IMG/VR virus record: IMGVR_UViG_3300012582_000004 | Coordinates: 283,858-347,857 of that record | Source: a virus | Length of the DNA stretch: 64,000 nt | Direction: 5' to 3' (one strand) | Shown here: piece after piece, positions 1 to 57,081 of the stretch | How the letters are laid out: each line of letters starts with the position of its first letter | Numbering within the stretch: position 1 is the first letter of the stretch | Program-made: the position numbers and the translations under genes | The notes under the pieces: generated by a model | Database searches by the model: none | Told to the model about the DNA's origin: nothing | The model's input: only the letters and a program-made list of their open reading frames with translations

Positions 1-168
1 CCATTTTTAATATTTGGTCCAGTTATGCTATGTATAGAATATAAGACTTATTGGTTCTTATTAATATACCCGTCTTATTATTTAGGAATGTTTATACATA
101 TTTTTTTAAAAGAAAGATATTCTATTAATAATAGAAAACGTAAAATAAACAATTTAATTTCAGATTAG
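1..168 (+). CDS. C-terminal part of a membrane protein with RKxRI-like tail (5' end outside window)
   Basis: An open frame runs from base 1 to a TAG at 166-168. The 55 visible residues are hydrophobic and aromatic, consistent with membrane segments, and end in a basic tail (NNRKRKINNLISD). That tail resembles the RKxRIxxL ending shared by many small proteins in this window. The next gene starts 1 base after the stop. Function unknown. Confidence 0.6.
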   Translation, partial: PFLIFGPVMLCIEYKTYWFLLIYPSYYLGMFIHIFLKERYSINNRKRKINNLISD

Positions 169-169
169 T

Positions 170-382
170 ATGATACCATTTCAAAAAGGCGACAGAATAA
201 CACTTAAAATTGAGTATAATTTATCAAACAAAAGAGAAATATGTATAGTTAGAAATTGTGAACTATATTTTCATGGTATATACGCATTAGCTATTGAAGG
301 TAAACCATATACTACTTATGATAGTTCTTACTTTGAGAAAGTTAATGATAGAAAGGATAGAATAGATAATTTAAATCTATGA
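170..382 (+). CDS. small GD-motif (SH3-like?) protein with RKxRIxxL tail
   Basis: 70 residues. It opens with FQKGDRITL, a pattern typical of small SH3/KOW-like beta barrels (an inference from sequence look only), and ends with the tail NDRKDRIDNLNL. It is the first of at least five tandem paralogues (also at 379, 833, 1491, 1940). Its stop overlaps the next start (ATGA), which suggests translational coupling. Function unknown. Confidence 0.75.
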   Translation: MIPFQKGDRITLKIEYNLSNKREICIVRNCELYFHGIYALAIEGKPYTTYDSSYFEKVNDRKDRIDNLNL

Positions 383-594
383 TTATGTTTATAAAGGGTG
401 ATAAAATAGTTGTTAGGAAAGATATACCATTACATGTATTAAAAGATAAGGTAAGCACAGTTTTGTCTTGTTTTGAATATTATAAAGGATTATACATATT
501 AACTATTGAGGGTAATTATAATATTTATAAACCTGATGATTTTGAGCTAGCTAATAATAGAAAATCAAGAATAGAAAACTTAAAATTGGATTAA
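379..594 (+). CDS. small GD-motif protein with RKxRIxxL tail
   Basis: 71 residues. FIKGDKIVV near the start and the tail NNRKSRIENLKLD mark it as a paralogue of its neighbours. It shares the middle pattern of a basic helix-like stretch, a hydrophobic strand ending in a cysteine, then a Y-rich strand. Overlaps the previous gene by 4 bases. Function unknown. Confidence 0.75.
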   Translation: MIMFIKGDKIVVRKDIPLHVLKDKVSTVLSCFEYYKGLYILTIEGNYNIYKPDDFELANNRKSRIENLKLD

Positions 595-609
595 CCTCTT
601 TTCATTACA

Positions 610-846
610 ATGAGCAACGAATTACACTATATTGATGAATTTCGTATTTGTATTACATCATTTAAAATTAATGAATTTACATTTGAAAAAGGTAATATGT
701 ATAATGTGGATTTTATTGTTGATGAAATTTATAAAAAAGAGCTTAGTAATAGAGTGGAATGTATTGTGTTTTTATCAGATAACTTTCGAACAATACATGA
801 ATATAGAAAAATTAAAATAGAAGATATAAATAATGATACCATTTAA
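610..846 (+). CDS. hypothetical protein with EYRKIKIEDI tail
   Basis: 78 residues, not recognised. The C-terminus TIHEYRKIKIEDI is a weak version of the tail seen elsewhere and also resembles the EHRExII tail family. An alternative frame at 632-820 is shorter and lies inside, so it is taken as a shadow. The end overlaps the next gene by 14 bases. Confidence 0.65.
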   Translation: MSNELHYIDEFRICITSFKINEFTFEKGNMYNVDFIVDEIYKKELSNRVECIVFLSDNFRTIHEYRKIKIEDINNDTI

Positions 847-1051
847 ACCAGGTGATAAAGTAGTTCTTAAAAATGGTATGTTAACACCTAGATTAACAGA
901 AGGTATTGTATATACAGTTTCTTCTTGTACTAAATATTCATCAATAGAATATCATATAGTAATTCTTGAAAATAGATTATCATTATTTTCAAGCGGTTAT
1001 TTTGACAAAGTTGATAGTAGAAAGGATAGAATAGATAAACTAAATTTATGA
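833..1051 (+). CDS. small GD-motif protein with RKxRIxxL tail
   Basis: 72 residues: FKPGDKVVL start, VYTVSSCTKY middle, tail DSRKDRIDKLNL. Clear paralogue of the genes at 170, 379, 1491 and 1940. The stop overlaps the next ATG. Function unknown; the family context suggests a short barrel plus a basic tail. Confidence 0.75.
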   Translation: MIPFKPGDKVVLKNGMLTPRLTEGIVYTVSSCTKYSSIEYHIVILENRLSLFSSGYFDKVDSRKDRIDKLNL

Positions 1052-1494
1052 AAAATAAAATAGAAAGCATATTGTCTCCATATCCAATAACTCTTGTGAT
1101 AAGTGCTACAAATTACGAATTTGTAAAAAATCCTGATTATTATCATACAAAATTTTATTTTTCAGATAATAAGCATAAATGGCTTAATTTAGTTAAAATA
1201 TTTGAAGATATGAATATTGATAATGTGAAATATAATTGTAATGAATATAACTATAAAACAAGTGTTGAAATTAGCAATTTAACTATAATAAAAAATATAG
1301 ATGATTTTATAGCTGATAAAAGATTAGAAATAATATATTATAAAAATAAATATTTAAAAAGCTACAAATATATTAAAATAACTCTTAATTCAATAGAAGA
1401 AGTAGAAGAAATTATTAATATACTTGTATTTCTATTAACAGAACCATCATACAAGAAATTAAAAAGAAATACTATTATAAACGAATTATTATGA
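1048..1494 (+). CDS. hypothetical protein, 148 aa
   Basis: Not recognised. Lysine, asparagine and isoleucine rich. It ends KLKRNTIINELL, similar to the HREAIINELL ending of the protein at 18536-18808. It sits in the coupled array, overlapping 4 bases on both sides, so it is probably co-translated with the GD-motif proteins. Confidence 0.7.
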   Translation: MKNKIESILSPYPITLVISATNYEFVKNPDYYHTKFYFSDNKHKWLNLVKIFEDMNIDNVKYNCNEYNYKTSVEISNLTIIKNIDDFIADKRLEIIYYKNKYLKSYKYIKITLNSIEEVEEIINILVFLLTEPSYKKLKRNTIINELL

Positions 1495-1712
1495 AACCAT
1501 TCGAACCAGGTGATAAAGTAGTTATTAAAACTGATATACTATCGCATAGTTTAAAAGATGTAGTATGTACAGTCATAACTTGTTATCAACTATACATGAA
1601 TATAGATTATGTAGTAACTATAGATTACGATAATTTTTTATATTATGCTGATAATTTCATGAAAATTAATAATAGAAAACATAGAATTAATAGATTATAT
1701 GAAAATAAATAA
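1491..1712 (+). CDS. small GD-motif protein with RKxRIxxL tail
   Basis: 73 residues: FEPGDKVVI start, the segment ILSHSLKDVVCTVITCY shared with the protein at 1940, and tail NNRKHRINRLYENK. Overlaps the next gene by 14 bases. Function unknown. Confidence 0.75.
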   Translation: MKPFEPGDKVVIKTDILSHSLKDVVCTVITCYQLYMNIDYVVTIDYDNFLYYADNFMKINNRKHRINRLYENK

Positions 1713-1947
1713 AAAGCTTATAGGAAATGTGTATGATGTAGTTGTAGATAGTAGAAAAGATGGTGTAAATTACTTAACTATTATTGATGTAATACGCAGT
1801 GAAAAACAAATCAAATTATTAGATAATAATAATAAAGAATTGTATATACGCTATGATATATTTTTATATTTAGAGATAAATGATTATATAATTTATTCTA
1901 AAGATAAAAATAGAATTAGAAAAATTAAATCCATTATTAATGAATAA
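1699..1947 (+). CDS. hypothetical protein with basic C-terminal tail (paralogue of 2185)
   Basis: 82 residues. IGNVYDVV near the start and KDKNRIRKIKSI near the end pair it with the gene at 2185-2460 (IGNVYNIV, KEKTRIRKIESL). The tail is a variant of the RKxRI ending. It is nested between two GD-motif genes, overlapping both. Confidence 0.72.
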   Translation: MKINKKLIGNVYDVVVDSRKDGVNYLTIIDVIRSEKQIKLLDNNNKELYIRYDIFLYLEINDYIIYSKDKNRIRKIKSIINE

Positions 1948-2182
1948 TATTAAACCATTCGAACCAGGTGATATAGTGATTGTTAGAAAAGATATACTAT
2001 CCCACACACTAAAAAATAAAGTATGTACAATTAGAACTTGTTATTATCACATAACAAAAAAAGAATATGTAGTATCTATTAAGAATGGTAGTAATCTTTA
2101 TTTTGGTAATCTTTACTGTGCTCGTTATTTTGAGAAGTATAACAGTAGAAAAGACAGAATTGAAAGTCTTAATTTAGATTAA
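1940..2182 (+). CDS. small GD-motif protein with RKxRIxxL tail
   Basis: 80 residues: FEPGDIVIV start, RKDILSHTLKNKVCTIRTCY middle, tail NSRKDRIESLNLD. Nearest paralogue is the gene at 1491. Function unknown. Confidence 0.75.
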   Translation: MNNIKPFEPGDIVIVRKDILSHTLKNKVCTIRTCYYHITKKEYVVSIKNGSNLYFGNLYCARYFEKYNSRKDRIESLNLD

Positions 2183-2184
2183 AT

Positions 2185-2460: not shown

Positions 2461-2481
2461 CTTTATGAGAAGTAAGAAAGC

Positions 2482-11693: not shown

Positions 11694-12851
11694 TTAGGCT
11701 TCATATTGATTATAAATCATATTGATTCTTTCCTCGGTATATTGACATGTAAGCAAATAACTATCAACTTTCTGAGAAGGTAATTCAAACATAACATCAC
11801 TCATGATTTTCTCACAAATTGCTCTAAGTCCTCTAGCACCCAATTTAAATTCCAATGCTTTTTCAGCAATACATGCAATTGCATCTTCTTCTATTTCAAG
11901 CTTAATGTTATCAAGAGCGAATAATCTCACATATTGCTTCAATATAGAATTTCTAGGTTCAGTTAAAATTAATTTCAATGTTTCATTAGTAAGAGCATCC
12001 AAATGAGTTAGTATCGGCAAACGCCCCAACAATTCAGTTATTAATCCGAATTGAATTAAATCTTGTACAGCAATACATTTCAATAGATTATCTTCGTTGA
12101 TTGCTTGTGGAGTTTTGCTAGTGAATCCAACTTTACTATTCACATTCAATCTATTACGGATTATATCTTTAATACCACCAAAAGCACCACCTGAAATGAA
12201 AAGAATATTATCAGTATTCATTACCATCTCATTTTCAATGGCTTGTTTCTTACTTGGCTTTAGATTAACTATACTGCTTTCAAGTATTTTCAATAATGCT
12301 TGTTGTACACCGACACCCGCTACATCAAGCATTTGTGTTCCTTGAGTTCGTTTCTTAGCAATTTTATCAATTTCGTCAATATAGACAATACCTTTTTCTG
12401 CTTTTTTAATATCGAAATCCGATGCTTGTAATAAACGATATAAAATACTTTCAACATCTTCACCAGTATAACCTGTTTGAGTTAATGTAGTTGCATCTAC
12501 AATGCAAAATGGAACATCGAGAATTTTAGCAAGAATTTTAATCAAGTACGTTTTACCTGTGCCTGATTCACCAATCATAATAACATTGGATTTTTCGATA
12601 ATTACATCATCTTCATCTTTACAAGGATTGTTAATTCTCTTATAATGATTGTATGCTGCGACAGCAATAGTTTTCTTTGCTTCATCCTGACCAATAACAT
12701 ATTGATCCAAAAATTCTTTGATTTGTATAGGTTTTAAATCAAATGTTGGCGCTGCTTTTTTTATGAAATCTGGCTTAGAAGCCTTTTTGATAATTTTTTT
12801 AGGAAGTGGTTCAATCACTCTTTTTTTCTTCTTTTTGAATATTGTCTTCAT
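11694..12851 (-). CDS. clpX: ClpX-like AAA+ unfoldase lacking the zinc-binding domain
   Basis: 385 residues covering the AAA+ core of ClpX. YVIGQDEAKK (51-60), Walker A GESGTGKT (94-101), pore loop GYTG (127-130, normally GYVG), Walker B IVYIDEID (155-162), arginine-finger region GRLP (276-279) and sensor-2 LGARGLRA are visible. The N-terminal Cys4 zinc domain of cellular ClpX, which binds adaptors, is absent and replaced by a lysine-rich leader. A VGF tripeptide (241-243) stands where cellular ClpX has the ClpP-docking IGF loop. Known family role: ATP-driven unfolding of tagged proteins, delivered to ClpP. No clpP is seen here, so use of host ClpP is an inference. Promoter at 12856-12886. 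Confidence 0.92.
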   Translation of the reverse strand: MKTIFKKKKKRVIEPLPKKIIKKASKPDFIKKAAPTFDLKPIQIKEFLDQYVIGQDEAKKTIAVAAYNHYKRINNPCKDEDDVIIEKSNVIMIGESGTGKTYLIKILAKILDVPFCIVDATTLTQTGYTGEDVESILYRLLQASDFDIKKAEKGIVYIDEIDKIAKKRTQGTQMLDVAGVGVQQALLKILESSIVNLKPSKKQAIENEMVMNTDNILFISGGAFGGIKDIIRNRLNVNSKVGFTSKTPQAINEDNLLKCIAVQDLIQFGLITELLGRLPILTHLDALTNETLKLILTEPRNSILKQYVRLFALDNIKLEIEEDAIACIAEKALEFKLGARGLRAICEKIMSDVMFELPSQKVDSYLLTCQYTEERINMIYNQYEA

Positions 12852-13613: not shown

Positions 13614-13730
13614 AATGTTCTACTTTTAGATTTAATCCATATTATATAACAAATGTATTTCCATAATTATTTTAAAACTTTCGTCTTTAGTTTTACTATA
13701 ATTAGTATATGGGTAAAATTGCGAATTAAT

Positions 13731-13982
13731 ATGAATGATGAAATAATAGGTAATATATTAAAAAGTAATGTACTCTATTGTAAAGAAAATTATTATCCTT
13801 TTATTAAAGGTAGAATATACAGATGTGTAATAACAAATTTTAGTATAGTTATTACAATAGAAAGCAACTGCGGAAATCATAGATATTTTATAATAGATAT
13901 TAAAGATAGTATGAATAAACTACTAAATCATTTTACTACTGTTCAAGAACATAGAGAATCTATCATCAAAGATTTATTATGA
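13731..13982 (+). CDS. hypothetical protein with EHRExII tail, 83 aa
   Basis: Belongs with the proteins at 17936, 18282 and 18536: an aromatic beta-rich core and a C-terminal tail TVQEHRESIIKDLL. The ATG at 13731 (MNDEIIGNIL) is preferred by comparison with their starts; an in-frame ATG at 13653 would add a hydrophobic leader. The stop overlaps the next ATG. Confidence 0.65.
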   Translation: MNDEIIGNILKSNVLYCKENYYPFIKGRIYRCVITNFSIVITIESNCGNHRYFIIDIKDSMNKLLNHFTTVQEHRESIIKDLL

Positions 13983-15449: not shown

Positions 15450-15618
15450 ATAGTATGCGCAAACATCGCATCATATGGTATCTCGAATATTATCATATGT
15501 TAATTTAAGGCTTTTTATTGATGGTTTACATCTTTTTGTCGCGGAAACAGTATCCCATGCAGCCTTTTTTAGTAATAAGAAAGCAGGACTATTGGAGAAA
15601 TTCAATAGTCTGTTTTTA
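15450..15618 (+). ncRNA. candidate structured non-coding RNA ending in a terminator
   Basis: A G+C-richer stretch with hairpins ATGCG/CGCAT (15455-15471), CATATGGTA/TATCATATG (15472-15499) and AAGGCT/AGCCTT followed by Ts (15507-15570). It ends with a stem CAG-ACTATTG/CAATAGT-CTG (15584-15612) and five Ts, a typical Rho-independent terminator. An open frame from 15475 runs through it, but only the part after 15682 is protein-like by paralogy. Function unknown. Confidence 0.5.
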
Positions 15619-15681
15619 TTTAAATTTGGATTTGATTGTAAAATTTTATATATTTGGTGTTATAAAAATAAACTACAAAAT

Positions 15682-15915
15682 ATGAGCGTAATAAATGAAA
15701 TACTTGATGGTAATTATCAGTTAATTAAAACTCTTTTAACAGATGATGTAGAAATTCTTATCGAACATGTTAAATTAATGGAAGAAAATGATAAGTTAGA
15801 CTTTATAACAAACATTGTTGATGAAGAAATTTTTGATGTTTACCCAGTTGGTTCACTTAAAAAATTTCTATTAAGCTTTAAAGATGAATTGGTAAAAATT
15901 TCAGATAGAAGTTAA
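15682..15915 (+). CDS. hypothetical protein, 77 aa (four-member paralogue family)
   Basis: The start at 15682 (MSVINEILDGNYQLIK) is set by alignment with the gene at 16339 (INEILNGNYKLIN). The C-terminal LLSFKDELVKIS also matches 16339 (LLNFKSELEKIS), 57758 (LLNFRLLLEKIA) and 28308 (LKNFKEELISIS). The in-frame extension to 15475 crosses the structured RNA and is rejected. Function unknown. Confidence 0.7.
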   Translation: MSVINEILDGNYQLIKTLLTDDVEILIEHVKLMEENDKLDFITNIVDEEIFDVYPVGSLKKFLLSFKDELVKISDRS

Positions 15916-16338: not shown

Positions 16339-16617
16339 ATGAATGCTATAAATGATTCTGAAACTAATGATTTAGTTAATAATATCAAATTTAGATATAT
16401 CAATGAAATACTCAATGGTAACTATAAATTGATTAATAATATTACTTCTGCTACAGTAGATACTTTTATTAACCATGTTAAAGAAATGAAGGAAGATGAA
16501 AGATTGGATTTAATTACAAATATTATTGATAATAGAGATAATATTATAGAAGGAAATCTTAAAGTAATTCTTTTAAACTTTAAATCTGAATTAGAAAAAA
16601 TATCTTCAATGAGTTAA
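16339..16617 (+). CDS. hypothetical protein, 92 aa (paralogue of 15682)
   Basis: Same core as the gene at 15682 (INEILNGNYKLI, HVKEMKEDERLDLITNIID, LLNFKSELEKIS). Helical throughout. The two copies flank denV, suggesting local duplication around it. Function unknown. Confidence 0.7.
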   Translation: MNAINDSETNDLVNNIKFRYINEILNGNYKLINNITSATVDTFINHVKEMKEDERLDLITNIIDNRDNIIEGNLKVILLNFKSELEKISSMS

Positions 16618-17596: not shown

Positions 17597-17917
17597 TTAT
17601 TTATATAGATTATCTATTCTTTTCTTCCTTTTAGTCAAAGCATCGTCACCACCATACATCATGGTTCTATATTTTTGATATTGATATTCAAATGAATTTT
17701 CAAATATTATATTACTATAACCATACGTCTTATCAACCAAATCATTAGAATAATCTGATATAGGATCAGCAGATATTACGATTCTATCAGATGTAATTTG
17801 TTCAGTATCAGGCACAGTATAGCATATTAATTCACTTTCTCTAATAGAATTCGATAAATAATTATTAAGATATTCTACTACATCTATTCCCACTGTTGAT
17901 TTATTTTTATCTTTCAT
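17597..17917 (-). CDS. hypothetical protein with RKxRIxxL tail, 106 aa
   Basis: Not recognised apart from the tail KRKKRIDNLYK. The middle (TVPDTEQITSDRIVISADPI) is beta-like. Upstream of the metallopeptidase gene in the same direction. Confidence 0.68.
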   Translation of the reverse strand: MKDKNKSTVGIDVVEYLNNYLSNSIRESELICYTVPDTEQITSDRIVISADPISDYSNDLVDKTYGYSNIIFENSFEYQYQKYRTMMYGGDDALTKRKKRIDNLYK

Positions 17918-17935: not shown

Positions 17936-18289
17936 TTAAATATTATTATCAATGATATACAACCTATGTTCTGTGATAGTCATATAGTTATTCATAATGT
18001 AATCCACTGTATGATTAAAATATGATGCAACATAATATCGTTTATTATCCTCGTTAATAAAAATGGTAATAAAATCCTTTTCTAACTTAAAAAGATAATG
18101 CGTTTCAATAGATACTTTCTTACCTGTTTTTTTAGAATAAATATGATTTAATCCTATGAACTTTTTTAACTTCTGATAATTTATAGCACAATCTTTATCA
18201 TATTTTTTATTTACAGACTTTTTTCGATCAAAAAATGTGTATATAAAATCAATAATATTAAAATATAGGCTGTATATCTTTTTAATCAT
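17936..18289 (-). CDS. hypothetical protein with EHRxxII tail, 117 aa
   Basis: The core FIGLNHIYSKKTGKKVSIE and ending TITEHRLYIIDNN match the next two upstream genes. It has a longer, basic and aromatic N-terminus than they do. Part of a three-gene tandem family (17936, 18282, 18536). Confidence 0.7.
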   Translation of the reverse strand: MIKKIYSLYFNIIDFIYTFFDRKKSVNKKYDKDCAINYQKLKKFIGLNHIYSKKTGKKVSIETHYLFKLEKDFITIFINEDNKRYYVASYFNHTVDYIMNNYMTITEHRLYIIDNNI

Positions 18290-18539
18290 TACATAATTTA
18301 TTTATAATAGTTTCTCTATGTTCAGATGGTGTTATATAGTTATCCAATACGTATTTCACATGTGTATCAAAACTAGAAGTATAAAAATCTCTATTAACAT
18401 GATCATGAACATGAATTATATATGGTTCAAATTTATGAAAATCTCTCACTGAAACAAAAACCTTCTCACCAGTAGATTTACGATATATGTATTTTAAACC
18501 AATGAACTTTTTAAACTTATTATAACTTTCTTTACTCAT
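18282..18539 (-). CDS. hypothetical protein with EHRExII tail, 85 aa
   Basis: FIGLKYIYRKSTGEKVFVS core and TPSEHRETIINKL tail; paralogue of both neighbours. Overlaps 4 bases upstream and 8 bases downstream. Function unknown. Confidence 0.72.
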   Translation of the reverse strand: MSKESYNKFKKFIGLKYIYRKSTGEKVFVSVRDFHKFEPYIIHVHDHVNRDFYTSSFDTHVKYVLDNYITPSEHRETIINKLCND

Positions 18540-18808
18540 AATAACTCATTTATAATAGCTTCTCTATGTTCTGTAATAGTCAAGTAATTACTTAATAGTC
18601 GTTCCACATCTTCGTTATATAAAGAATTAAAAAGATGTATTCCATCACCAACTAGTATGTGAATACTATAGTCATAAATGTTATATTTAATCGGAATTTT
18701 AATACCTCTATATTTACAATATACGAATTTATCTTTTATAAACTTTTCGAATATTGAATAATTTATAGCACGTTGTTTAGTATTAATACTATCTATCATA
18801 CCGCTCAT
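18536..18808 (-). CDS. hypothetical protein with EHRExII tail, 90 aa
   Basis: FIKDKFVYCKYRGIKIPI core and TITEHREAIINELL tail; first of the tandem trio. Overlaps the neighbouring genes by 4 bases on each side. Function unknown. Confidence 0.72.
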   Translation of the reverse strand: MSGMIDSINTKQRAINYSIFEKFIKDKFVYCKYRGIKIPIKYNIYDYSIHILVGDGIHLFNSLYNEDVERLLSNYLTITEHREAIINELL

Positions 18809-19154: not shown

Positions 19155-19364
19155 TTAATCTAAATTCAATTTATTTATTCTATATCGTCTATAATCACTT
19201 ACCTTAATAAACAAATGACATTTCTGTATACCACCATATCCACTCGCACCACCATCAAAAGTCATATACCATGTATTATTTATTTCACCACACGCTCTAA
19301 CAGTATATACAACTTCAGAATTCTTTATGGATACTACTCTATCCCCTATATTAAATGGTTTCAT
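19155..19364 (-). CDS. small GD-motif protein with RRxRI tail, 69 aa
   Basis: FNIGDRVVSI start and DYRRYRINKLNLD tail, so a distant copy of the 170-2182 array. YTVRACGEI corresponds to the cysteine-containing strand of that family. Confidence 0.72.
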   Translation of the reverse strand: MKPFNIGDRVVSIKNSEVVYTVRACGEINNTWYMTFDGGASGYGGIQKCHLFIKVSDYRRYRINKLNLD

Positions 19365-19366: not shown

Positions 19367-20044
19367 TTAATCTTGAATAAATTCTGCTATTGTATGTTGT
19401 CTACACCATTGTTTATAATTTTGTATACCTAATTTATCAGCTATTAAATTAATAACATATTTCTCAATATCTTTATAGTTTTTATGTGCGCTTAATGATG
19501 CATAAATTATAGAAAGAGTATATGCATTAATATATTCTTTTGATGATACATCAACATTTGGAATATATTTAACTATAAAGTCTACATTTACTTCTCTTTT
19601 ACCATCTGTCATATAATCAAGTAAAAATAGAGAATATTGATATTCTTTAGTTGATGCTATAACATCATATTTTTTATTGAAATTAGTTTCATCCCATGGT
19701 GTTCCACGCTCAATCATATGTAATCTCTCACATTCATAAGTATGATCCCAAGAAGCACCATATACACTTATAAGTTTTACTGTAGGTGTAATTGTTGTAA
19801 ATAATATATTAACTTTATTATGTGTAAAATAATCAGATAATTTATCTACAATAAGTGTACCTATTATTATTTTTTCAAATTCAGAAAAAGTGGAAATGAT
19901 TTGATTATATTTTTGTATTTCAGAGTCTTCTATAGATAAAATTATTGGTGGTGTATCAATTACATCATCATTTTCATAGTTCTTCACTACTTTTCTCATC
20001 CAATTAAGTACTTCTTCAAATTGTGTATGTAATTTTAATTTCAT
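19367..20044 (-). CDS. hypothetical protein, 225 aa (paralogue of 20055 and 57078)
   Basis: Closely related to the adjacent upstream gene (SSTKEYQYSLFLLDYMTDGKREVNV, YKQWCRRHTIAEFIQD). The C-terminal YKxWxxR module also ends the protein at 57078. Mostly helical and soluble. Function unknown; a tandem duplication. Confidence 0.75.
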   Translation of the reverse strand: MKLKLHTQFEEVLNWMRKVVKNYENDDVIDTPPIILSIEDSEIQKYNQIISTFSEFEKIIIGTLIVDKLSDYFTHNKVNILFTTITPTVKLISVYGASWDHTYECERLHMIERGTPWDETNFNKKYDVIASTKEYQYSLFLLDYMTDGKREVNVDFIVKYIPNVDVSSKEYINAYTLSIIYASLSAHKNYKDIEKYVINLIADKLGIQNYKQWCRQHTIAEFIQD

Positions 20045-20054: not shown

Positions 20055-20726
20055 TTAATCTTCTATAATATCTGCTAAAATAACTCGTCTACACCATTTT
20101 TTATAGCTATATACTTCTAATCTTTCAGCTATTAAATCTAACATATATTGGGATGCTTTATTCTTATCAATAGATATAGTATTGTAAATAACAGAAATTG
20201 CAAATAAGTTAACTATTTCATTTGCTGGTACGTCTAAATTAGATACATTAATTTCTCTATTACCATCAGTTATGTAGTCTAATAGAAATAATGAATATTG
20301 ATATTCTTTAGTTGATGAAACTCTATTATATGTTTCTTCGAATGTTTCTTTTACCCATACATTTTTTTCTTCATTAAAGATTGCCTTTTCCCATGGTGTA
20401 TGAGCATCTAATTTCTTTTTTTCGTATGTATCTGACCACGTATCACCATACGAAATATCTGATAGTAATTTGAGTACACTTATAACACTTTTTAATATGA
20501 TTTCTATTTTATCATCATTTATATAATAATGTGAAGAATCTATTATATGTGAAGCGATTAATATTTTCTCATATTCAGAGAAATTACTTATGTTATTTGC
20601 ATATTTTTGTATTATGACATCATCTACACAAAGAAGAAATGTTAAATCTGTTTCTGAATTCAGAAATATATTATTCCTTACCCAATTAAATGTTTCTTCA
20701 AATAGTGGATTTACGTTAAATTTCAT
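20055..20726 (-). CDS. hypothetical protein, 223 aa (paralogue of 19367 and 57078)
   Basis: SSTKEYQYSLFLLDYITDGNREINV and YKKWCRRVILADIIED are shared with the next gene downstream. Function unknown. Confidence 0.75.
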   Translation of the reverse strand: MKFNVNPLFEETFNWVRNNIFLNSETDLTFLLCVDDVIIQKYANNISNFSEYEKILIASHIIDSSHYYINDDKIEIILKSVISVLKLLSDISYGDTWSDTYEKKKLDAHTPWEKAIFNEEKNVWVKETFEETYNRVSSTKEYQYSLFLLDYITDGNREINVSNLDVPANEIVNLFAISVIYNTISIDKNKASQYMLDLIAERLEVYSYKKWCRRVILADIIED

Positions 20727-35532: not shown

Positions 35533-35564
35533 TTTGTTTTTTTCTTCAGTTATGCGTATATTTG
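35533..35564 (+). promoter_or_regulatory. Bacteroidota-type promoter
   Basis: TTTG (-33, 35533-35536) and TATATTTG (-7, 35557-35564), 6 bases before the ATG at 35571. Confidence 0.7.
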
Positions 35565-35570
35565 TCATAT

Positions 35571-36255: not shown

Positions 36256-36540
36256 ATGGAATACAACGATTTTAAAAAATTAAATGTAGGTGATAATATC
36301 ACAATTAAAGAAAATCCAATTTCTTGGACATCCCACAATTATGGTAGATGTGGAACTGATAGAGTAAAGTATCCGTATACATTTACCATCGTTAAATTTG
36401 CATATTTGAAAGGATTTTTTAATCATATTTCTATTATATGTCAAAACGGTTATGGTTGGTCAATTGAAGTGTCTAATTATGAAAAATTTGAAATTAATAA
36501 AAAAAGCAGAAGAAGTAGAATCGAAAATTTGAATATATGA
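36256..36540 (+). CDS. GD-motif-like protein with RRSRIENLNI tail, 94 aa
   Basis: KLNVGDNITI, the NYGRCGTDRVKYPY segment shared with 35979, GYGWSI, and the tail KKSRRSRIENLNI. The stop overlaps the next ATG. Confidence 0.72.
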   Translation: MEYNDFKKLNVGDNITIKENPISWTSHNYGRCGTDRVKYPYTFTIVKFAYLKGFFNHISIICQNGYGWSIEVSNYEKFEINKKSRRSRIENLNI

Positions 36541-36779
36541 AAATTGAAATTGGTGATGTAATGATTTGTTTACCAGGATTTACTAATAACATTAGTAACT
36601 CTAACTATGGTGGTGCTGGGTATACAGAAAATAAAATATTTACCGTAGGGAGCATTACAGGTAACGGTAGAGTTATATGGGCTAATGATGAAAGTGGTAA
36701 AGGTGTTTACAGTTATACATTAAAACATTATACTAATAGAAAATCAAGAATTGAAAAATTACACAATGAAAATTTATAA
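36537..36779 (+). CDS. GD-motif-like protein with RKSRIEKL tail, 80 aa
   Basis: IEIGDVMICLPG start, the NSNYGGAGYTENK segment equivalent to its neighbours' NYGRCG region, and tail TNRKSRIEKLHNENL. Third of the 35979-36779 paralogue trio. Confidence 0.72.
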   Translation: MKIEIGDVMICLPGFTNNISNSNYGGAGYTENKIFTVGSITGNGRVIWANDESGKGVYSYTLKHYTNRKSRIEKLHNENL

Positions 36780-37251: not shown

Positions 37252-37806
37252 ATGAATTTCTACTCAAATTTCGATGATTTTCTATTAGAGAAAAATGGAT
37301 TTACACACAATGTATTATTATATAAATTAAATATTCCTGGATGGGAAAATATTATAAACAGTATTGATAAAGAAGATATTTGGAAAATAGAGAATACAGA
37401 ATTACCTGGTATACCAGGTGGTTATCAATTGTATCCACATGTTACTTTATTGTATAATTTAAGAAATACAAATATAAACAAAATTGGTTCATTAATAAGC
37501 ACCTTAGAACCTATTAAATTTGAAATTAATGGTATAAATATATTTAGAACATCTAAGGGATACGATGTATTAAAAATGTCTGTTAAACCAACCGAAGAAC
37601 TTCTTTATATACATCAAATATTTAAGGATATTTTTCATACAAATTCTAATGATGATTATACACCACATATTACAATAGCATACTTAAAAGAAGGTACTGC
37701 TCTAAAATATGTTGATTATGAATATAAAAATATTATTTATTCCGATACTATCATATACAGTCTAAAAAGTGGTTATCAACTCGAATTTAAAATTGATGCT
37801 AAATAA
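37252..37806 (+). CDS. 2H phosphoesterase (2'-5' RNA ligase-like), 184 aa
   Basis: Two HxT motifs, YPHVTLL (H63, T65) and TPHITIA (H139, T141), spaced as in the 2H phosphoesterase superfamily, with the expected beta-alpha pattern. Known members hydrolyse 2',3'- or 3',5'-phosphodiester bonds in RNA or cyclic oligonucleotides; T4 Acb1 uses this fold to destroy CBASS signals. An anti-defence role here is inference. Late-type box and divergent MKYLKLFE-type neighbour at 36800. Confidence 0.8.
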   Translation: MNFYSNFDDFLLEKNGFTHNVLLYKLNIPGWENIINSIDKEDIWKIENTELPGIPGGYQLYPHVTLLYNLRNTNINKIGSLISTLEPIKFEINGINIFRTSKGYDVLKMSVKPTEELLYIHQIFKDIFHTNSNDDYTPHITIAYLKEGTALKYVDYEYKNIIYSDTIIYSLKSGYQLEFKIDAK

Positions 37807-37811: not shown

Positions 37812-38249
37812 TTAATTATAAAGATTATCAATTCTCGATTTTCTATCAAGTTTTACACATCTTTCATCAAATTCTATACGCTCTAATCCTTCCAATAAAT
37901 AAACAATACTAAAATTTTTAACTTTAATTTTAACTATTTTACCTTTTATATTATGATTGTATAATATGGCTATTACTCTATCATCAATTTTAAATTTGAC
38001 GTTTCTCAGTAATCGTTTCTTGTGCTTTATGTTTATTATTGATGTAATTAAAATATCTATTGAAATTAATGGACCACTCAACATAAGTAATATATTATAT
38101 TTACTAAATAAATCATTTGTATCAAAATATTTAGATACTAAATACGTATTACTACAGTCATATAACATGTTAGTTAAAATAACACCTATCACAAACCAAA
38201 GCACACCTATTATAATAAAAATTATTGCTGTCGTTACTATTGTTTCCAT
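37812..38249 (-). CDS. membrane protein with GD-like domain and RKSRIDNLY tail, 145 aa
   Basis: ATG at 38249 (METIVTTAIIF) is preferred over a TTG at 38267. Two hydrophobic segments, then VKFKIDDRVIAIL (barrel-like), ending LDRKSRIDNLYN. Same plan as 32637 and 43973. Confidence 0.72.
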   Translation of the reverse strand: METIVTTAIIFIIIGVLWFVIGVILTNMLYDCSNTYLVSKYFDTNDLFSKYNILLMLSGPLISIDILITSIINIKHKKRLLRNVKFKIDDRVIAILYNHNIKGKIVKIKVKNFSIVYLLEGLERIEFDERCVKLDRKSRIDNLYN

Positions 38250-38253
38250 TAAA

Positions 38254-38571
38254 TTAAAAATTATCAACTAATGTTATTTCTATTTTTAGTGCATCTTCTA
38301 CTATACTTTTAATCCAATGATAACCAAATAGCGATTCTTTTGTTCCACATTTTTCTATAGCTTCTTTATGTGTTATAATATTAGAATTAACTGATTTATT
38401 TAGAATCATATTTCTAAACATATAAAAATCAACAATATCTAACATATATTGTTTACTTTTTAAATAATCTTTAATTTCTTCATCTTGTTTAATGAAATTT
38501 AACATTTCATAATTTACTCTACCCCCTGATAAGAAGTATTTCCATTTAGAACTTTTTGTTAATGATTGCAT
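38254..38571 (-). CDS. hypothetical helical protein, 105 aa
   Basis: Not recognised; helical, with FIKQDEEIKDYLKSKQYML. Starts the two-gene minus-strand unit with 37812. Confidence 0.68.
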   Translation of the reverse strand: MQSLTKSSKWKYFLSGGRVNYEMLNFIKQDEEIKDYLKSKQYMLDIVDFYMFRNMILNKSVNSNIITHKEAIEKCGTKESLFGYHWIKSIVEDALKIEITLVDNF

Positions 38572-39871: not shown

Positions 39872-41998
39872 TTATTTAACTATTGTCATAGATATACTAT
39901 CAGGAACAAAATCATACTTAGAAAACGTCATATTAGGGACTGCTCTTCCAGATGTTAGAGTTCTTAATGATGTAATATAACCAAACAACATTGATAGTGG
40001 AACTGATGCAGTAATAAGCTGAGTATTTCCTTTATTGTCAATATTCGTAATAGAACCTCTTCTCTTATTCAAATCACCAGATACAGACCCAATAAAATCA
40101 TCAGGTGTAGTTACAACTACTTCCATGATAGGTTCTAATAATTTTGGTTTAGCTTGTTTAGAAGCTACTTTAAATCCTTCTTTTGCTGCTAATTCAAATG
40201 ACAATGCATCAGAATCCACATCATGATAAGAACCATGTATAAGTCTAATTTTCATAGATTCTACAGGATAGCCACCTAAAGGACCATTTTTCATAGCTTC
40301 TTCAAATCCTTTTTGAATAGGTGTGATAAATTCTTTTGGAATTACTCCACCAACTATTTCATTAACGAATTCCAAACCTAATTTTCCATCTTCACGTGGA
40401 CCAATTTCAAACACAATATCAGCAAATTTACCTCTACCACCAGTTTGTTTACTGAATACTTCTCTATGTTGAAACTTATTAGTTAAGGTTTCTTTGTACG
40501 CAACTAAAGGCGCACCTTGTTTTACCTCAACACCATGATCACGTTTCAATGTTTCAAGTCTAACTTCTAAGTGAAGCTCACCCATACCCCTTATTATAGT
40601 TTGACCAGTTTCTTTATCAGTATTTACTCTAAGAGATGGATCCTCTTCAACTAATTTAGAAAGAGCAATTCCCAATTTATCAGAATCCGCTTGACTTTTT
40701 GCTTCAATCGCATAACCTATCACAGGCTCAGGAAAAGACATAGACTCTAAAACAACTTTGTTATCAATAACAAGTGTATCACCAGTTCTAATATTCTTTA
40801 TACCGATAAACGCAACTATATCACCTGCTTCTGCACTTTCAATTTGAATTTGCTTATTCGAGTGCATTTGTACAATTCTTGATACTCTTTCTTTAGTACC
40901 TGTTCTCATATTAATAATATAAGAACCTGCATTAATATGACCAGAATAACATCTAACATAACACAACTTACCATATTGGTCAGTTGTTATCTTAAAAGCA
41001 AGTCCAGTAAATGGTCTACCAATCGCTGGAGTAATCTCAACTTCTTCATCAGTATCAGTATTTATACCCTTTGTGATCCTATCTTTAGGTGAAGGAAGAT
41101 ATGCACATACAGCATCTATTACAGACTGAACACCTTTATTTTTAAAGGCAGAACCGCAAAGAACTGGAAATATTTTCATTTCAACAGTAGCCTTTCTGAT
41201 AACAGATTTCACTTCTTCTTCACTAATTTCTTGATTATCCAAATATTTTAGCATAAGTTCATCATCATATTCAGATAGAGTTTCTAATAAAGATTTTCTG
41301 TATTCATTTACAGTTTCTACTATATCTGTCGGAATTTCAATTTCTCTATAAGTTTTACCTTCATCTTCAGTATTCCATAGAATACCTTTCATTGCAATTA
41401 AATCAACTACCCCGATAAAACCATCTTCTGAACCAATTGGTATTTGTAATGGTATTGCATTCGCACCGAGTTTTTCTCTTATAGTTTTAACAGCCTTAAA
41501 GAAGTTAGCACCCGCTCTATCCATTTTATTAACAAAACATACTCTTGGAACACCATAACGATCAGCTTGTCTCCAAACAGTCTCAGACTGTGGTTCTACA
41601 CCCGATACAGCGCAAAATAGAGCAACTGCACCATCCAATACTCTAAGTGAACGTTCTACCTCAACTGTAAAGTCAACATGTCCTGGTGTGTCTATAATGT
41701 TAATATTATAGGATTCACTATTTGGTATAAGTTCACCTTGTGTTGTTGGATAGTTCCAAAATACTGTAGTTGCAGCAGAAGTAATCGTAATACCTCTTTC
41801 TTTTTCTAAATCCATATGGTCCATTGTAGCACCCGCACCATCTCTATCATGTACTTCACCAATTTTGTGTGTTTTACCCGTATAATATAAAATACGCTCT
41901 GTTGTTGTAGTTTTACCAGCATCGATATGGGCCATAATTCCAACATTTCTAAGTAGTCCGAGTTCCTTACCTTTCCTACCTGTATCCGAATCTTTCAT
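39872..41998 (-). CDS. fusA: elongation factor G (full length)
   Basis: 708 residues, normal EF-G length. All GTPase motifs are intact: AHIDAGKT (23-30), ERGITIT (67-73), DTPGH (103-107), NKMD (157-160) and a GSAF G5 box. Domains II to V follow, with the conserved GMGELHLEV and SGGRGKF-type (TGGRGKF) segments. Known role: GTP-driven ribosome translocation and, with RRF, ribosome recycling. The sequence is bacterial-like, and G+C looks higher than in neighbours, suggesting capture from a host. A phage copy could keep translation going when host EF-G is blocked; that is inference. A leader peptide and terminator-like hairpin lie upstream. Confidence 0.96.
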
Positions 41999-43972: not shown

Positions 43973-44434
43973 ATGTTAATATTCACCATATTACTTTCAA
44001 TAATAGCAAATATTGGTATTGGCGCAATATCATGTGGGTTAGCTTCTATAACTATGAATATGTTTAATGAAGATTATGAAAACTATTTAGCCAGATTAAA
44101 TTTTTTACAGACTATAATACTTTTCTCATTTGGCGTATTAGCCATTTTCACAATACCTTATGCTATAATAAAAAGTGATAAAAATATTATCAAGAGAACA
44201 AGATTTAAACTTGGTGAAAATGTAAAAATAAAAAAGAATGAGATAGAAAAACATTATTCTAAAGAAAGTGCAATTCATAGAGAAAATTGGGTTTATAAAG
44301 TAAATTCAATGTCTGTACGTAATGGTAGATTAGTATATACTATTGCACATGATGGTGGTATGATAATTCGCTTGTATTCATCGGATGTCGAAAAAGTTTT
44401 AAGTAGAAAAGAAAGAATAAAAAATTTATGTTAA
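43973..44434 (+). CDS. membrane protein with GD-like domain and RKERIKNL tail, 153 aa
   Basis: Two hydrophobic segments (about 2-28 and 43-65), then TRFKLGENVKIKK (barrel-like), ending LSRKERIKNLC. Same plan as 32637 and 37812. Overlaps the next gene by 7 bases. Confidence 0.72.
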   Translation: MLIFTILLSIIANIGIGAISCGLASITMNMFNEDYENYLARLNFLQTIILFSFGVLAIFTIPYAIIKSDKNIIKRTRFKLGENVKIKKNEIEKHYSKESAIHRENWVYKVNSMSVRNGRLVYTIAHDGGMIIRLYSSDVEKVLSRKERIKNLC

Positions 44435-44859
44435 TTTTAATCATAGCAATTTTTTTAATATTTGGACTGGGTACATGGTATGCAGTTCATACAGATGAAA
44501 CTTATGATAAAATTAATGGAGTAATTAAATATAAATACACCAATGTTATTACGGATTTAAAACCAGGTGATGATTTTTCTTGTCGCATAGATGGTGATAG
44601 ATGTGTAGGCAAAATACAGATTATATCAAATCGTGTTTATTTATGTCAAGATGTTAGCTATGGTGTAGCACCTGCGTGGCATTCACATCGTGATAAAATG
44701 GGATATGCTTATAGTTGGTTTGCTGGATATATTTATTTAACTAAAGGAATTAATACAAGAGTATTACAAGAATTTTTACAGTCCATTGAAAAGTACAGTA
44801 TTACCGACTTTAAGTTGAGGGATAATAGTAGGAAAGAAAGAATAAAAAGGTTGTATTAA
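44428..44859 (+). CDS. membrane-anchored protein with GD-motif domain and RKERIKRLY tail, 143 aa
   Basis: One N-terminal hydrophobic helix (2-20), then LKPGDDFSCRIDGDRCVGKI and a tryptophan/histidine-rich part, ending NSRKERIKRLY. Fourth member of the membrane-barrel-tail group. Confidence 0.72.
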   Translation: MLILIIAIFLIFGLGTWYAVHTDETYDKINGVIKYKYTNVITDLKPGDDFSCRIDGDRCVGKIQIISNRVYLCQDVSYGVAPAWHSHRDKMGYAYSWFAGYIYLTKGINTRVLQEFLQSIEKYSITDFKLRDNSRKERIKRLY

Positions 44860-52712: not shown

Positions 52713-53024
52713 ATGAAATTATATTGTAAAAGAGATAATACATTTAGAATTATGGAAGTAGAAAAACATGACAACGCACTTCATTTGTATGATTATTTAA
52801 TTAGTGCTGATATTGTTTTTCAAAGATTGACATCTAAATTTTCTAAAGTTAATTATATAAGAATACTTAAATCGAGAGAATTTAATAGAAATGCACACAT
52901 TTATGAATATGAATTTTTAGAATACCTTAAAAGTATTTTATCAAACGAACATCATCAGGAAATATTAATAGTTTTCAATAAACCAAATAGAAAAGAAAGA
53001 ATTCATAATTTAAATTTATTATAA
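52713..53024 (+). CDS. hypothetical protein with RKERIHNLNL tail, 103 aa
   Basis: Core not recognised; ends PNRKERIHNLNLL, the recurrent tail. Two bases before the next gene. Confidence 0.7.
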   Translation: MKLYCKRDNTFRIMEVEKHDNALHLYDYLISADIVFQRLTSKFSKVNYIRILKSREFNRNAHIYEYEFLEYLKSILSNEHHQEILIVFNKPNRKERIHNLNLL

Positions 53025-54252: not shown

Positions 54253-54268
54253 TTTTTATTTTTAAACA

Positions 54269-54849: not shown

Positions 54850-54852
54850 TTT

Positions 54853-55348: not shown

Positions 55349-55372
55349 AGGGACTCAATTGAGTCCCTTTAT
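55347..55372. terminator. bidirectional Rho-independent terminator
   Basis: Perfect stem AAAGGGACTC/GAGTCCCTTT (55347-55370) between convergent genes. Confidence 0.82.
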
Positions 55373-55645
55373 TTATTTTAAAATATCAACTGATATACAA
55401 TGTGTACTGTCCGATAAATTAGTTTTTAACATAAATGTAAATTTATAAACATCATAATCCGTTTCAAACTTTACTACATTCACATCATACCTTTCAAATA
55501 GAATTTTATTTAAGTTTGAAATTCTAGACGGAACAATGAAAGTACTTTTTAAAAATTCTTTTACAGATTTAATAAGTTCAATTTCTTGATATTTTTTATC
55601 ATGCATTCTTTGAACGGTTTCGCAAGTAGTTTTTTTACTGTCCAT
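55373..55645 (-). CDS. hypothetical protein, 90 aa
   Basis: N-terminal helical part, then beta-rich VVKFETDYDVYKFTFMLKT. Not recognised. Two bases after the SPFH-like gene. Confidence 0.68.
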   Translation of the reverse strand: MDSKKTTCETVQRMHDKKYQEIELIKSVKEFLKSTFIVPSRISNLNKILFERYDVNVVKFETDYDVYKFTFMLKTNLSDSTHCISVDILK

Positions 55646-55647
55646 AA

Positions 55648-56190
55648 TTATTCGATTATTTTTGATACTTTAATAAATTTTCTTTTTTCATTATCGAAAG
55701 AATATCCTCTTAATAAATCTTTCATACCTCTGTATTCATCATCGTAACCAGAGTTGTATGAAATTCTATTATCCCACCAATAATATCTAAATCCTTCTAT
55801 TTCTACAAACTCTCGCCATCCCAATTTATCAAACTCTACTAGACGAGAGTTAAAACTTCTTGATGATGTTGAAATTGATACTCTAATAGGTCTAATATCA
55901 ATTCTAACAACTTTAACCCAAGGTGCTGATAGATTAGGACCTGGTTTATCATCTAACCACAATTCACCTGTTATTTCATTTCTAATAATTCCTATTTGGT
56001 GAGAATCTGTATAATGAAAGCATGTTGCCCAAAAAAGTAATAAAAAACTAATTGAGCCAATTGTAATTTTTATTTTCTTTGTTAGTCGTATTCTAAACTT
56101 TAAATAGAATTCTTTAATATCCTTTATTGTATATTTTTTTACAATAAATAAATAATAAAGTAAACCGATTATAATAAGTATGTAAATCAT
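55648..56190 (-). CDS. SPFH/band-7-like membrane protein, 180 aa (paralogue of 56187)
   Basis: Hydrophobic N-terminal segments (about 3-16 and 43-60), then HQIGIIRNEITGELWLDDKPG, APWVKVVRIDIRPIRVSI and KLGWREFVEIEGF, aligning with the neighbour upstream. The pattern of a membrane helix followed by xxxxGxxxNxxxGx...PPWxxxxxIDxRP resembles SPFH (prohibitin-like) domains, which form membrane-bound rings. Confidence 0.65.
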   Translation of the reverse strand: MIYILIIIGLLYYLFIVKKYTIKDIKEFYLKFRIRLTKKIKITIGSISFLLLFWATCFHYTDSHQIGIIRNEITGELWLDDKPGPNLSAPWVKVVRIDIRPIRVSISTSSRSFNSRLVEFDKLGWREFVEIEGFRYYWWDNRISYNSGYDDEYRGMKDLLRGYSFDNEKRKFIKVSKIIE

Positions 56191-56714
56191 TTTACTAAGA
56201 TTTCTGTTTTAATGGTATCTGCTTTGAAAACTTTATCCGAATTGTTTTCCATAGTACCTTTTTCATCAGGTTTCAATTCTTTCGTAATAGATAAGAATGG
56301 ATACTGACTTAAATCTGAACCATCGTAAGCATATGATAATAAAATATCTTTTAAATTAGTTACAGTGTTGTAATCACCTCTACCATGCCAATCAATAAAT
56401 GTTTTAAAGCCAGTTGGATTAAATCGAACTAATTTACAGTTAAGAATTCTTGAGTTAGCATTAATACAAACTTGTACAGGACGTAAATCAATCGTATGAA
56501 CCGATACAACAATAGGTGGTGTAATCACATAACCTGTTTTGATTTTGCCTTTTTCGGTAAGAATAGGTGTGATTTCACCTGAGCGTTTATCATATTTATA
56601 TCCGAATTCGTGGCTATCAATAAATGTTACCCAACCAATTCTAAAAATTATTAAGCCGACTATAGAAACTGCAACTAGTATCATTGAAATAATTGCCAAA
56701 GGTTTTAAATTCAT
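56187..56714 (-). CDS. SPFH/band-7-like membrane protein, 175 aa (paralogue of 55648)
   Basis: One N-terminal membrane helix (about 6-26), then SHEFGYKYDKRSGEITPI, GYVITPPIVVSVHTIDLRPV and a soluble C-terminus. Overlaps the paralogue by 4 bases, suggesting a hetero-oligomer. Family role in phages is not settled; scaffolding or protease control at the membrane is inference. Confidence 0.68.
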   Translation of the reverse strand: MNLKPLAIISMILVAVSIVGLIIFRIGWVTFIDSHEFGYKYDKRSGEITPILTEKGKIKTGYVITPPIVVSVHTIDLRPVQVCINANSRILNCKLVRFNPTGFKTFIDWHGRGDYNTVTNLKDILLSYAYDGSDLSQYPFLSITKELKPDEKGTMENNSDKVFKADTIKTEILVK

Positions 56715-56778
56715 ATTTTATGTGTGTTAATTTAAATTATAAACAAATATATAAAAAATATTTAGTAAAAACAAGAAT

Positions 56779-57081
56779 TTAGAGTAATTTATCTATTTTT
56801 TCTTTTCTAATTTGAGATTTAGTTTTAAATTGAGTTTCTTTATATGGTGTTCCACCCCAGAAAATTGTTACAAATAAAAATTGTATATCATGATGGTAAC
56901 CATCGTAATAAGCACTATATCTTTCAAATTTATGCAATTTGAACTCAAATACAATAGATAAATAATCTATGCAATACCATTTATTGTTAAAAATATATGA
57001 TTGTGCTAACCAATGTGTATGCCCACCATATTTTTTATATCTTCTATTAAATACATCTATACCATGTTTAAAAAATTTCAT
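56779..57081 (-). CDS. hypothetical protein with RKEKIDKLL tail, 100 aa
   Basis: Aromatic and histidine-rich (GGHTHWLAQSYIF, YYDGYHHDIQF) beta-like protein with the tail SQIRKEKIDKLL. Overlaps the upstream gene by 4 bases. Confidence 0.7.
   Translation of the reverse strand: MKFFKHGIDVFNRRYKKYGGHTHWLAQSYIFNNKWYCIDYLSIVFEFKLHKFERYSAYYDGYHHDIQFLFVTIFWGGTPYKETQFKTKSQIRKEKIDKLL

Follow-up and report, generated by a model that had tools for sequence, protein, structure and literature searches.

The 64,000-nucleotide stretch analyzed here (the window; bases 283858 to 347857 of the 347,857-base IMG/VR virus record IMGVR_UViG_3300012582_000004) raises the question of why many small phage proteins with differing cores end in the same short tail. 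An earlier note on this DNA listed 21 such ends and wrote the tail as [N/D]xRKxRIxxL[N/Y]L. Here, we find that the tail is real, protein level, modular, and present across much of the sampled clade. The best explanation as a whole is a C-terminal address label docked by one common, probably phage-encoded partner, a reading to which we assign a probability of roughly 0.4.

The window is part of LR756504, an uncultured 636-kb Mahaphage, 42 kb of which match it at 100%. The huge-phage survey (PMC7162821) reports complete genomes of 634, 636, 642, and 735 kb, uses Mahaphage as the clade name for its largest genomes, grouped there with the Lak phages, and predicts Bacteroidetes as hosts of the largest huge phages. 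We sampled 344 kb of LR756504 (544 called genes), 422 kb of LR756502 (680 genes), and 418 kb of LR745206 (638 genes), together with 428 kb of the 735-kb LR756501 (704 genes), 82 kb of LR756508 (131 genes), and 187 proteins of the 462-kb phage LR756500. Genes were called with a simple longest-open-reading-frame script, and the counts take in some false open reading frames. LR756508, LR756501, and the outgroups were sampled in part, and absence of the tail there holds for the sampled parts. Thirteen further contigs were found via the major capsid protein and picked for length from 80 listed loci of 389.

All 21 listed ends were borne out as ends of open reading frames carrying the tail, and 20 of them fit the simple pattern [RK][KR]x[RK][IL]xx[LI] lying no more than 8 residues from the end; one further tailed gene (610 to 846) had been missed. 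Within the window, 21 of 23 matches to this pattern were C-terminal (within 8 residues), as were 11 of 15 in seven held-out 20-kb stretches of LR756504. The back-translated pattern matched the window DNA 13 times against 0.73 expected (the top of 100 shuffles reached 4), and all 13 matches fell at gene ends. A scoring matrix trained on the window tails only was applied to a held-out set of 229 proteins from seven other LR756504 stretches and, at a cutoff of 8 bits, found 25 C-terminal and 5 internal matches. Reversing the held-out proteins left 0 C-terminal and 2 internal matches, and shuffling their last 20 residues left a mean of 0.38 (maximum, 2). The earlier note would have dropped the motif if it were no more frequent at C-termini than internally; enrichment over internal, reversed, and shuffled sequence was instead strong.

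Looser fixed patterns gave the same picture in three deeply sampled phages when protein ends were compared with control windows lying 25 and 50 residues before the end. Tails were found at 81/544 C-termini in LR756504 (controls, 1/452 and 2/452), 78/680 in LR756502 (3/563 and 4/563), and 78/638 in LR745206 (0/518 and 3/518), a total of 237/1862 sampled genes, or about 1 in 8. A de novo search for residue triplets ranked R...I..L at the top in LR756504 (64/533 last-16-residue windows versus 3/1599 internal windows) and found R......IL in LR756502 (29/403 versus 1/1209) and R..K...I in LR745206 (26/386 versus 1/1158). Two probable chance matches were kept in these counts: a DNA methyltransferase match, probably the protein of L035 5927 to 6637, whose end has the tail pattern by chance, and a 323-amino-acid protein (L010, 24 to 995), which looks like another such case. 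The tailed genes of the window are as follows, with the score or the analysis that supports the entry in parentheses where there is one.

25-168, plus strand: small membrane protein, ends NNRKRKINNLISD (21.9 bits)
170-382, plus strand: SH3-like (GD) barrel, ends NDRKDRIDNLNL (29.7 bits; barrel family)
379-594, plus strand: SH3-like barrel, ends NNRKSRIENLKLD (matrix)
610-846, plus strand: tailed protein absent from the earlier list, ends EYRKIKIEDINNDTI (16.2 bits)
833-1051, plus strand: SH3-like barrel, ends DSRKDRIDKLNL; helical tail detached in the AlphaFold model
1491-1712, plus strand: SH3-like barrel, ends NNRKHRINRLYENK (matrix)
1940-2182, plus strand: SH3-like barrel, ends NSRKDRIESLNLD (matrix)
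13653-13982, plus strand: looser tail variant, EHRESIIKDLL
18282-18539 and 18536-18808: looser variants of the same class
17597-17917, minus strand: 106-amino-acid protein, a singleton among the tailed cores, ends TKRKKRIDNLYK (matrix; core clustering)
19155-19364, minus strand: SH3-like barrel, ends DYRRYRINKLNLD (matrix; barrel family)
23109-23327, minus strand: 72-amino-acid protein, ends NNRKSKINTLQ (matrix)
26602-26793, minus strand: 63-amino-acid protein, ends ETRKERIEKLNL (matrix)
28924-29208, minus strand: SH3-like barrel, ends SERKSKIDNLNNL (matrix; barrel family)
29709-30101, minus strand: 130-amino-acid protein, ends LDRKSRIEKLY (matrix)
32637-33113, minus strand: transmembrane segments plus barrel (by reading), ends QDRKSRIDKIYGN
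35562-35840, plus strand: weaker tail variant, HTRTERIQNLIDKK / TRTERIQNLIDKK (9.2 bits)
36256-36540, plus strand: barrel (by reading), ends KSRRSRIENLNI (matrix)
36537-36779, plus strand: 80-amino-acid protein, ends TNRKSRIEKLHNENL; next gene convergent (matrix)
37812-38267, minus strand: transmembrane segments plus barrel (by reading), ends LDRKSRIDNLYN; next gene convergent
43973-44434, plus strand: two transmembrane segments plus soluble part, ends LSRKERIKNLC
44428-44859, plus strand: membrane protein of a 5-member family, ends NSRKERIKRLY
52713-53024, plus strand: 103-amino-acid protein, ends PNRKERIHNLNLL (matrix)
56779-57081, minus strand: 100-amino-acid protein, ends QIRKEKIDKLL (matrix)

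The tail described in the earlier note thus stands, but its exact consensus does not: the tail is more variable, with R...I..L as its core. Between 0 and 8 variable residues follow the motif, and the commonest endings differ. The motif also lies near the N terminus of two proteins read as having two transmembrane segments (L009, 3635 to 4009; L014, 5611 to 6153). A literature search made largely without subscription papers found no account of such C-termini common to many phage proteins.

Similar gene ends could also arise from a DNA or RNA element embedded in the coding sequence, such as a terminator, promoter, coupling site, or recombination site. Tailed genes lie in tight operons, where they usually abut the next gene or run into its start (median distance, -1). 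Tails in LR756502 are also less frequent ahead of a convergent gene (7/118 versus 49/289; Fisher P = 0.0025; 0.23 and 0.19 in the other two phages). Such an element might produce both patterns. Some tail pairs are 85 to 90% alike in DNA over 31 to 45 bases, a likeness also expected of recent duplicates. In 10 of 23 position tests across LR756504, LR756502, and LR745206, codon use varied less than the background did (P < 0.05), a result that counts against a signal acting on protein; the skew was mostly to A-ending codons and was clearest for ATA at one Ile position each in LR756504 and LR756502. Nevertheless, almost all conserved positions show synonymous codon variation, and nucleotide conservation beyond that of the amino acids was not found. 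The invariant positions use five Leu codons, three Ile codons, and four Arg codons, with the conserved Leu encoded in LR756504 by TTA 39 times, CTA 10, CTT 7, TTG 7, and CTC once. Moreover, the distance from motif to stop ranges over 0 to 8 residues, and the conserved residues keep a protein spacing across many unrelated sequences. Tails also precede convergent genes in all three phages (18/156 in LR756504, 7/118 in LR756502, and 11/120 in LR745206), and the 18 cases in LR756504 indicate that a downstream gene is not needed for the tail. Identical DNA in all copies, named in the earlier note as the sign of a DNA- or RNA-level signal, was looked for and is not what the copies have. We consider an embedded element largely refuted and very improbable, although the codon skew raises its odds slightly. 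Selection on protein, as the earlier note had suspected, is supported by codons that vary with only a mild skew, by cores that fall into many unrelated clusters, and by tails kept in orthologues.

After removal of the tail, phmmer clustering placed the cores of LR756504 in 56 clusters (81 cores), those of LR756502 in 55 (56 cores), and those of LR745206 in 50 (51 cores); one core under 30 residues was dropped. The earlier statement that the cores differ therefore holds for mostly unrelated clusters, but several of them share one SH3-like barrel, and five such barrels of the window cluster together. Some tailed membrane proteins consist, by reading, of transmembrane segments plus an SH3-like barrel, and 5 of the 81 tailed LR756504 proteins have a predicted transmembrane segment N-terminal of the tail. 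Known families gave little further help. Searches with the barrel fold returned weak SH3/KOW/tudor-like matches, none at E <= 0.001, and for the 81 tailed LR756504 proteins neither Pfam (below 0.002) nor PHROGs (below 7e-5) gave a match. A further 137 tailed proteins of three relatives (29 with LR756501 tails) had few informative matches. Over both sets, these matches were a BtpA-like one in a single tailed protein and 21 Pfam families, each represented by one or two proteins.

AlphaFold models suggest that the tail is detached from the fold that carries it. In the barrel family, core blocks had predicted local distance difference test (pLDDT) scores of 84 to 93, and residues 62 to 70 formed an unpacked C-terminal helix in blocks scoring 59 and 52. 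In a second family, the core (73 to 92) was followed by a low-confidence linker and an unpacked helix at residues 133 to 141 (46 and 40). Because codons vary, cores are mostly unrelated, and the models detach the tail, the tail is best read as a protein-level docking peptide. Alternatively, it could be the terminal helix of a single ancient, rapidly diverging domain, shared by paralogy only. Paralogues do occur among the tailed cores, including the five barrels of the window and a family with seven members, and in the barrels the R, I, and L of the tail are invariant along with core residues. However, when compared by sequence the cores form 56, 55, and 50 clusters, the tail occurs on membrane proteins, barrels, and other sequences, and it is unpacked in both models, so that common descent of one domain appears highly unlikely as the whole account.

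Across the clade, the tail comes in lineage dialects. A sister tail, RDxKIxxIL, is found in LR756502, in LR745206, and in at least 6 of the 13 related contigs (in the two phages R-D-x-K-[IL]-x-x-[IL]-L, frequently ending LGI). The residue after the invariant Arg (+1) is Lys or Arg in 51/83 LR756504 tails, versus 0/88 in LR756502, 8/92 in LR745206, and 2/54 in the contigs. Across the 13 contigs, 52 of 1042 genes were tailed, and control windows within these proteins gave 3.5. Of the contigs, G001 had 22/132, five others had four to six tails each, and the rest were at chance level or below (five with one or two tails; G005 and G011 with none). The 704 LR756501 genes held 13 related tails of the KRTKLIDKMLNE type, ten of them within one stretch. 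No comparable C-terminal motif was found in the sampled genes of Lak, PTm1, PAU, pT24, phage G, T4, and phiKZ; a Chryseobacterium phage was covered by a small sample only.

Reciprocal best pairs between LR756502 and LR745206 (177 pairs) were tailed in both members in 13 cases, in one in 10, and in neither in 154; by reading of the ends, 6 of the 10 one-sided pairs keep a near-tail. In contrast to this short-range agreement, 0/57 LR756504-LR756502 pairs were tailed in either member, and of 56 LR756504-LR745206 pairs none was tailed in both and 3 were tailed in one. These counts, which come from partial genome samples, indicate that the tail is kept by descent at short range and sits on a different protein set at long range. 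The switch from Lys to Asp at +1, with R...I..L kept, suggests a co-evolving reader encoded by the phage: the label changes charge between lineages and its frame stays constant, so the partner is most likely phage encoded. The proposal in the earlier note that the tail binds a common partner gains support from varied codons, unrelated cores, tails detached in the models, and retention in orthologues. That the tail is a docking label for something phage encoded, whatever its destination, is in our judgment probable. A single partner, its phage origin, and the early expression of its bearers are what we infer from these patterns.

The genes that carry the tail appear to form a class of their own. 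Tailed proteins are small (median lengths of 97, 109, and 110 amino acids in LR756504, LR756502, and LR745206, versus 137, 144, and 146). A separate N-terminal motif, MKYLKxFExFxE and variants, occurs on many genes of LR756504, LR756502, LR745206, LR756501, and LR756500 and resembles the T4 capsid-targeting sequence; one gene in the T4 sample has it. Genes with this N-motif give a predictable set of probable head-packaged proteins. In the first three phages, they often have an AT-rich element, TTTAATATATAA, about 11 to 14 nucleotides before the start. ATATATA within 80 nucleotides upstream was found at 13/18, 33/44, and 15/24 N-motif genes of LR756504, LR756502, and LR745206, respectively, versus 2/79, 2/77, and 8/78 tailed genes and 83/438, 142/544, and 131/524 other genes. 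It precedes the major capsid genes of all three and the portal and prohead-protease genes of LR756502. The element also lies upstream of the clamp-loader gene in the head region and so may not be strictly late. TAATATA as the promoter core performed more weakly than ATATATA in LR756504. The sequence TAnnTTTG, a promoter of the Bacteroidota type, occurred upstream of tailed operons only at the level of other operons.

N-motif and tail were never found together, against 9.21 expected after stratification by length (the minimum in 5000 permutations was 1). Taken singly, the three exclusion tables are only moderately significant (Fisher P = 0.09, 0.006, and 0.06; 0.06, 0.008, and 0.09 with a previous version of that pattern for the N-motif), which tempers the separation of the two classes. 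The choice of ATATATA and a single adjustment of the N-motif pattern were made after the data of these three phages had been viewed; the 13 further contigs are an independent check, in which the tail was on 0/43 N-motif genes and ATATATA preceded 29/43 genes with the N-motif, 4/51 with the tail, and 264/913 of the others. Because ATATATA is mostly absent and the N-motif never coincides with the tail, tailed proteins are read as a class outside the head-gene program. A further caution is that calling this class early is our inference from operon structure and the absence of one promoter element.

These data bear on packaging, another role that the earlier note had offered: the tail could direct small proteins into the head from their C-termini, in the way that the N-terminal capsid-targeting sequence serves T4 internal proteins. 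Early synthesis is a feature of T4 internal proteins too, and the argument from promoters would be weaker for it. The T4 capsid-targeting sequence is N-terminal and marks virion proteins, whereas the tail is C-terminal and belongs to a different class of genes. ATATATA, which precedes the major capsid genes in three phages and the portal and protease genes in one, is missing from most tailed genes; a separate N-terminal set often has that element and never the tail; and none of the major capsid proteins inspected had a tail. Compared with a T4-type sequence, then, the tail differs in position, and its bearers, judged by the upstream element, are not expressed with the head genes. The likeness that remains is that of a short terminal peptide as the sole sequence common to diverse small phage proteins, as one source states for the highly diverse T4 internal proteins and their targeting sequence (PMC3012670). 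Promoter class and exclusion from the N-motif proteins disfavor packaging, which we consider quite unlikely.

For the docking label itself, the proposed mechanism would run as follows. The tail may be a short helix-capable peptide hanging off a folded core and docked by one common partner. The docking face would consist of the three invariant residues of R...I..L (Arg, Ile, and Leu); most copies also have a basic residue just ahead of the Ile. It would mark small proteins made outside the head-gene program, early or accessory and presumably host directed, and would be kept apart from the N-terminal capsid-targeting-like label. As its likeliest action, the label would hand its bearers to a phage two-ring Clp unfoldase with ClpP, so that takeover proteins would be short-lived or cleared on schedule.

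The destination could equally be a place. The tail might gather its bearers at one site or complex (a hub or scaffold, a replication compartment, or host machinery, for example RNA polymerase or the ribosome), with no proteolysis. The evidence for the tail itself (C-terminal enrichment, de novo motif, core clusters, orthologues, and the +1 residue) fits this account as well, as do the transmembrane segments that precede the tail in 5/81 LR756504 proteins, with a tail end that appears cytosolic from Lys/Arg-rich stretches after the last segment. The near-N-terminal motif in the two proteins with two transmembrane segments fits docking better than a C-degron. No hub candidate was identified, however, and a universal host partner would leave the Lys-to-Asp switch at +1 unexplained. 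We regard localisation without proteolysis as possible, if on the unlikely side; Clp degradation and gathering at a hub or compartment are about equally likely, degradation being the more specific and the easier to test.

A Clp reader had been raised speculatively in the earlier note, in the form of the ClpX-like AAA+ protein of the window (11694 to 12851, minus strand). Among 15 genomes searched, strong ClpX-like matches were confined to LR756504, two Lak phages, and phage G. ClpX was rejected as the reader, since a strong match is missing from LR756502 and LR745206, the remaining tail-rich phages in the search, and the sampled Lak and G genes have no comparable motif. A protease tag stays possible with a different candidate: a two-ring Clp unfoldase encoded by LR756504, LR756502, LR745206, LR756501, and LR756508, with two rings in 5/5 scanned. 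In LR756504, LR756502, LR745206, and LR756508, the start of this protein coincides with the first AAA+ ring or lies close to it; the protein carries a [VI]GF loop of the ClpP-docking type and shows no Clp_N among the Pfam matches listed; a UVR motif is present in the last three of these and is not among the matches listed for LR756504. The tail-poor LR756501 has an unfoldase with Clp_N (8.7e-18) and without the [VI]GF loop, and it has no ClpP match. LR756504 and LR756502 each have two strong ClpP matches and one divergent match, and LR745206 has two strong ones; all six strong proteins keep the Ser and His motifs GxAAS and MIHQ. Elsewhere, there were one strong and one divergent match in each Lak phage, one strong in G, two weaker in LR756500, and one weak in LR756508. 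Each of the three tail-rich genomes searched whole (LR756504, LR756502, and LR745206) therefore has the two-ring unfoldase and two full ClpPs, and this pair ranks first among candidate readers; we treat it as a lead.

Several observations weigh against this reading. No partner of the tail was found directly. NCBIfam scores all five unfoldases best as ClpB, with ClpA close behind and every score below cutoff; the label ClpC-like was dropped in favor of two-ring Clp unfoldase. Unfoldase and ClpP matches occur together in the tailed LR756504, LR756502, LR745206, and G001, and also in LR756508 and G005, where the unfoldase has a [VI]GF loop and, by reading, no N-domain and where the sampled parts hold no tailed genes (0/131 in LR756508, with one chance-like loose match, and 0/139 in G005). 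Tail-rich G001 (22/132) has a single ClpP match where the other tail-rich genomes have at least two, although its 508-kb record may be incomplete. Co-occurrence is weak evidence in any case, because the three tail-rich genomes are related. The 0 to 8 residues after the motif and its two near-N-terminal copies are unlike ssrA-type degrons, which need an exact C terminus, and the conserved nine-residue face exceeds, in our judgment, what most ClpXP degrons need. The ClpB-best scores and the loop in G005 lower the odds for proteolysis, and the phage unfoldase with ClpP as destination is doubtful.

Known systems illustrate both sides of the comparison. Like MuA RRKKAI and ssrA, which one source gives as C-terminal ClpX degrons (PMC8138137), the tail is short and C-terminal, and the LR756504 form is basic, as is that of MuA. 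Those degrons are read by an AAA+ unfoldase, which for the tail is a candidate reading only. The tail differs in having about nine conserved residues with 0 to 8 variable ones after them, hence no defined last residues with a free carboxylate, in being hard-coded in about 1 gene in 8, and in varying between lineages. SPO1 Gp53, described as a phage adaptor of host ClpCP (PMC6873191), similarly bends a ClpC-ClpP protease to the phage program; it is one adaptor acting on the host ClpCP, in contrast to a tag on many proteins with a phage-encoded unfoldase and ClpP. The full version, a private tag-and-shred system of giant Bacteroidota phages in which a lineage-specific C-degron, an N-domain-less two-ring unfoldase, and phage ClpPs would act as a clock clearing takeover proteins, is unlikely as stated. 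If true, about 1 gene in 8 of the three deeply sampled phages would be born with a degron, and the phage would own a private clock for removal of its takeover proteins.

Most small huge-phage proteins have no known relatives, and a common label groups them into one functional class. A synthetic tail could serve directly as bait to retrieve the partner. Should the reader be phage made, these phages would address or time part of their own proteome by a private, lineage-specific code.

Two other peptides recur in related giant phages and, like the tail, are lineage specific and found on many proteins; they differ from it in being acidic and aromatic. DPYGEE(x)W occurs in LR756501 in 109 copies at the DNA level, with free synonymous variation (0 in a reversed-pattern control and in four other huge phages). 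Of the copies in the sampled genes, 35 are C-terminal and 63 elsewhere. The latter either separate domains within large proteins, one of which has a tRNA nucleotidyltransferase domain, or follow shortly after a MIKKFxxFE start at the N terminus. Bearers include L051 14863 to 18564, L132 4452 to 6983, and L138 4332 to 6339. A DPYGEE tail is also present on a stand-alone protein related to the T4-type prohead protease (L049, 11314 to 11850; PHROGs 3.4e-19, below the Pfam cutoff). The peptide may be a processing site or a docking motif. In LR756500 (L097, L101, and L102), 9 of 187 proteins end in NADDFG or a near variant, and 3 of the 9 also have the capsid-targeting-like N-terminal motif, unlike the bearers of the tail.

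Other shared endings occur within the window itself. An F...L.KI...S type of C terminus is common to the products of 15475 to 15915, 16339 to 16617, and 57758 to 58045, and a YK.W..R-like C-terminal stretch to three proteins of about 225 amino acids (19367 to 20044, 20055 to 20726, and 57078 to 57761). The product of 37252 to 37806 is 2H phosphoesterase-like and scores above the Pfam cutoffs for 2_5_RNA_ligase2 and anti-CBASS Acb1. The window also encodes a full-length phage elongation factor G (39872 to 41998), identical to the LR756504 copy.

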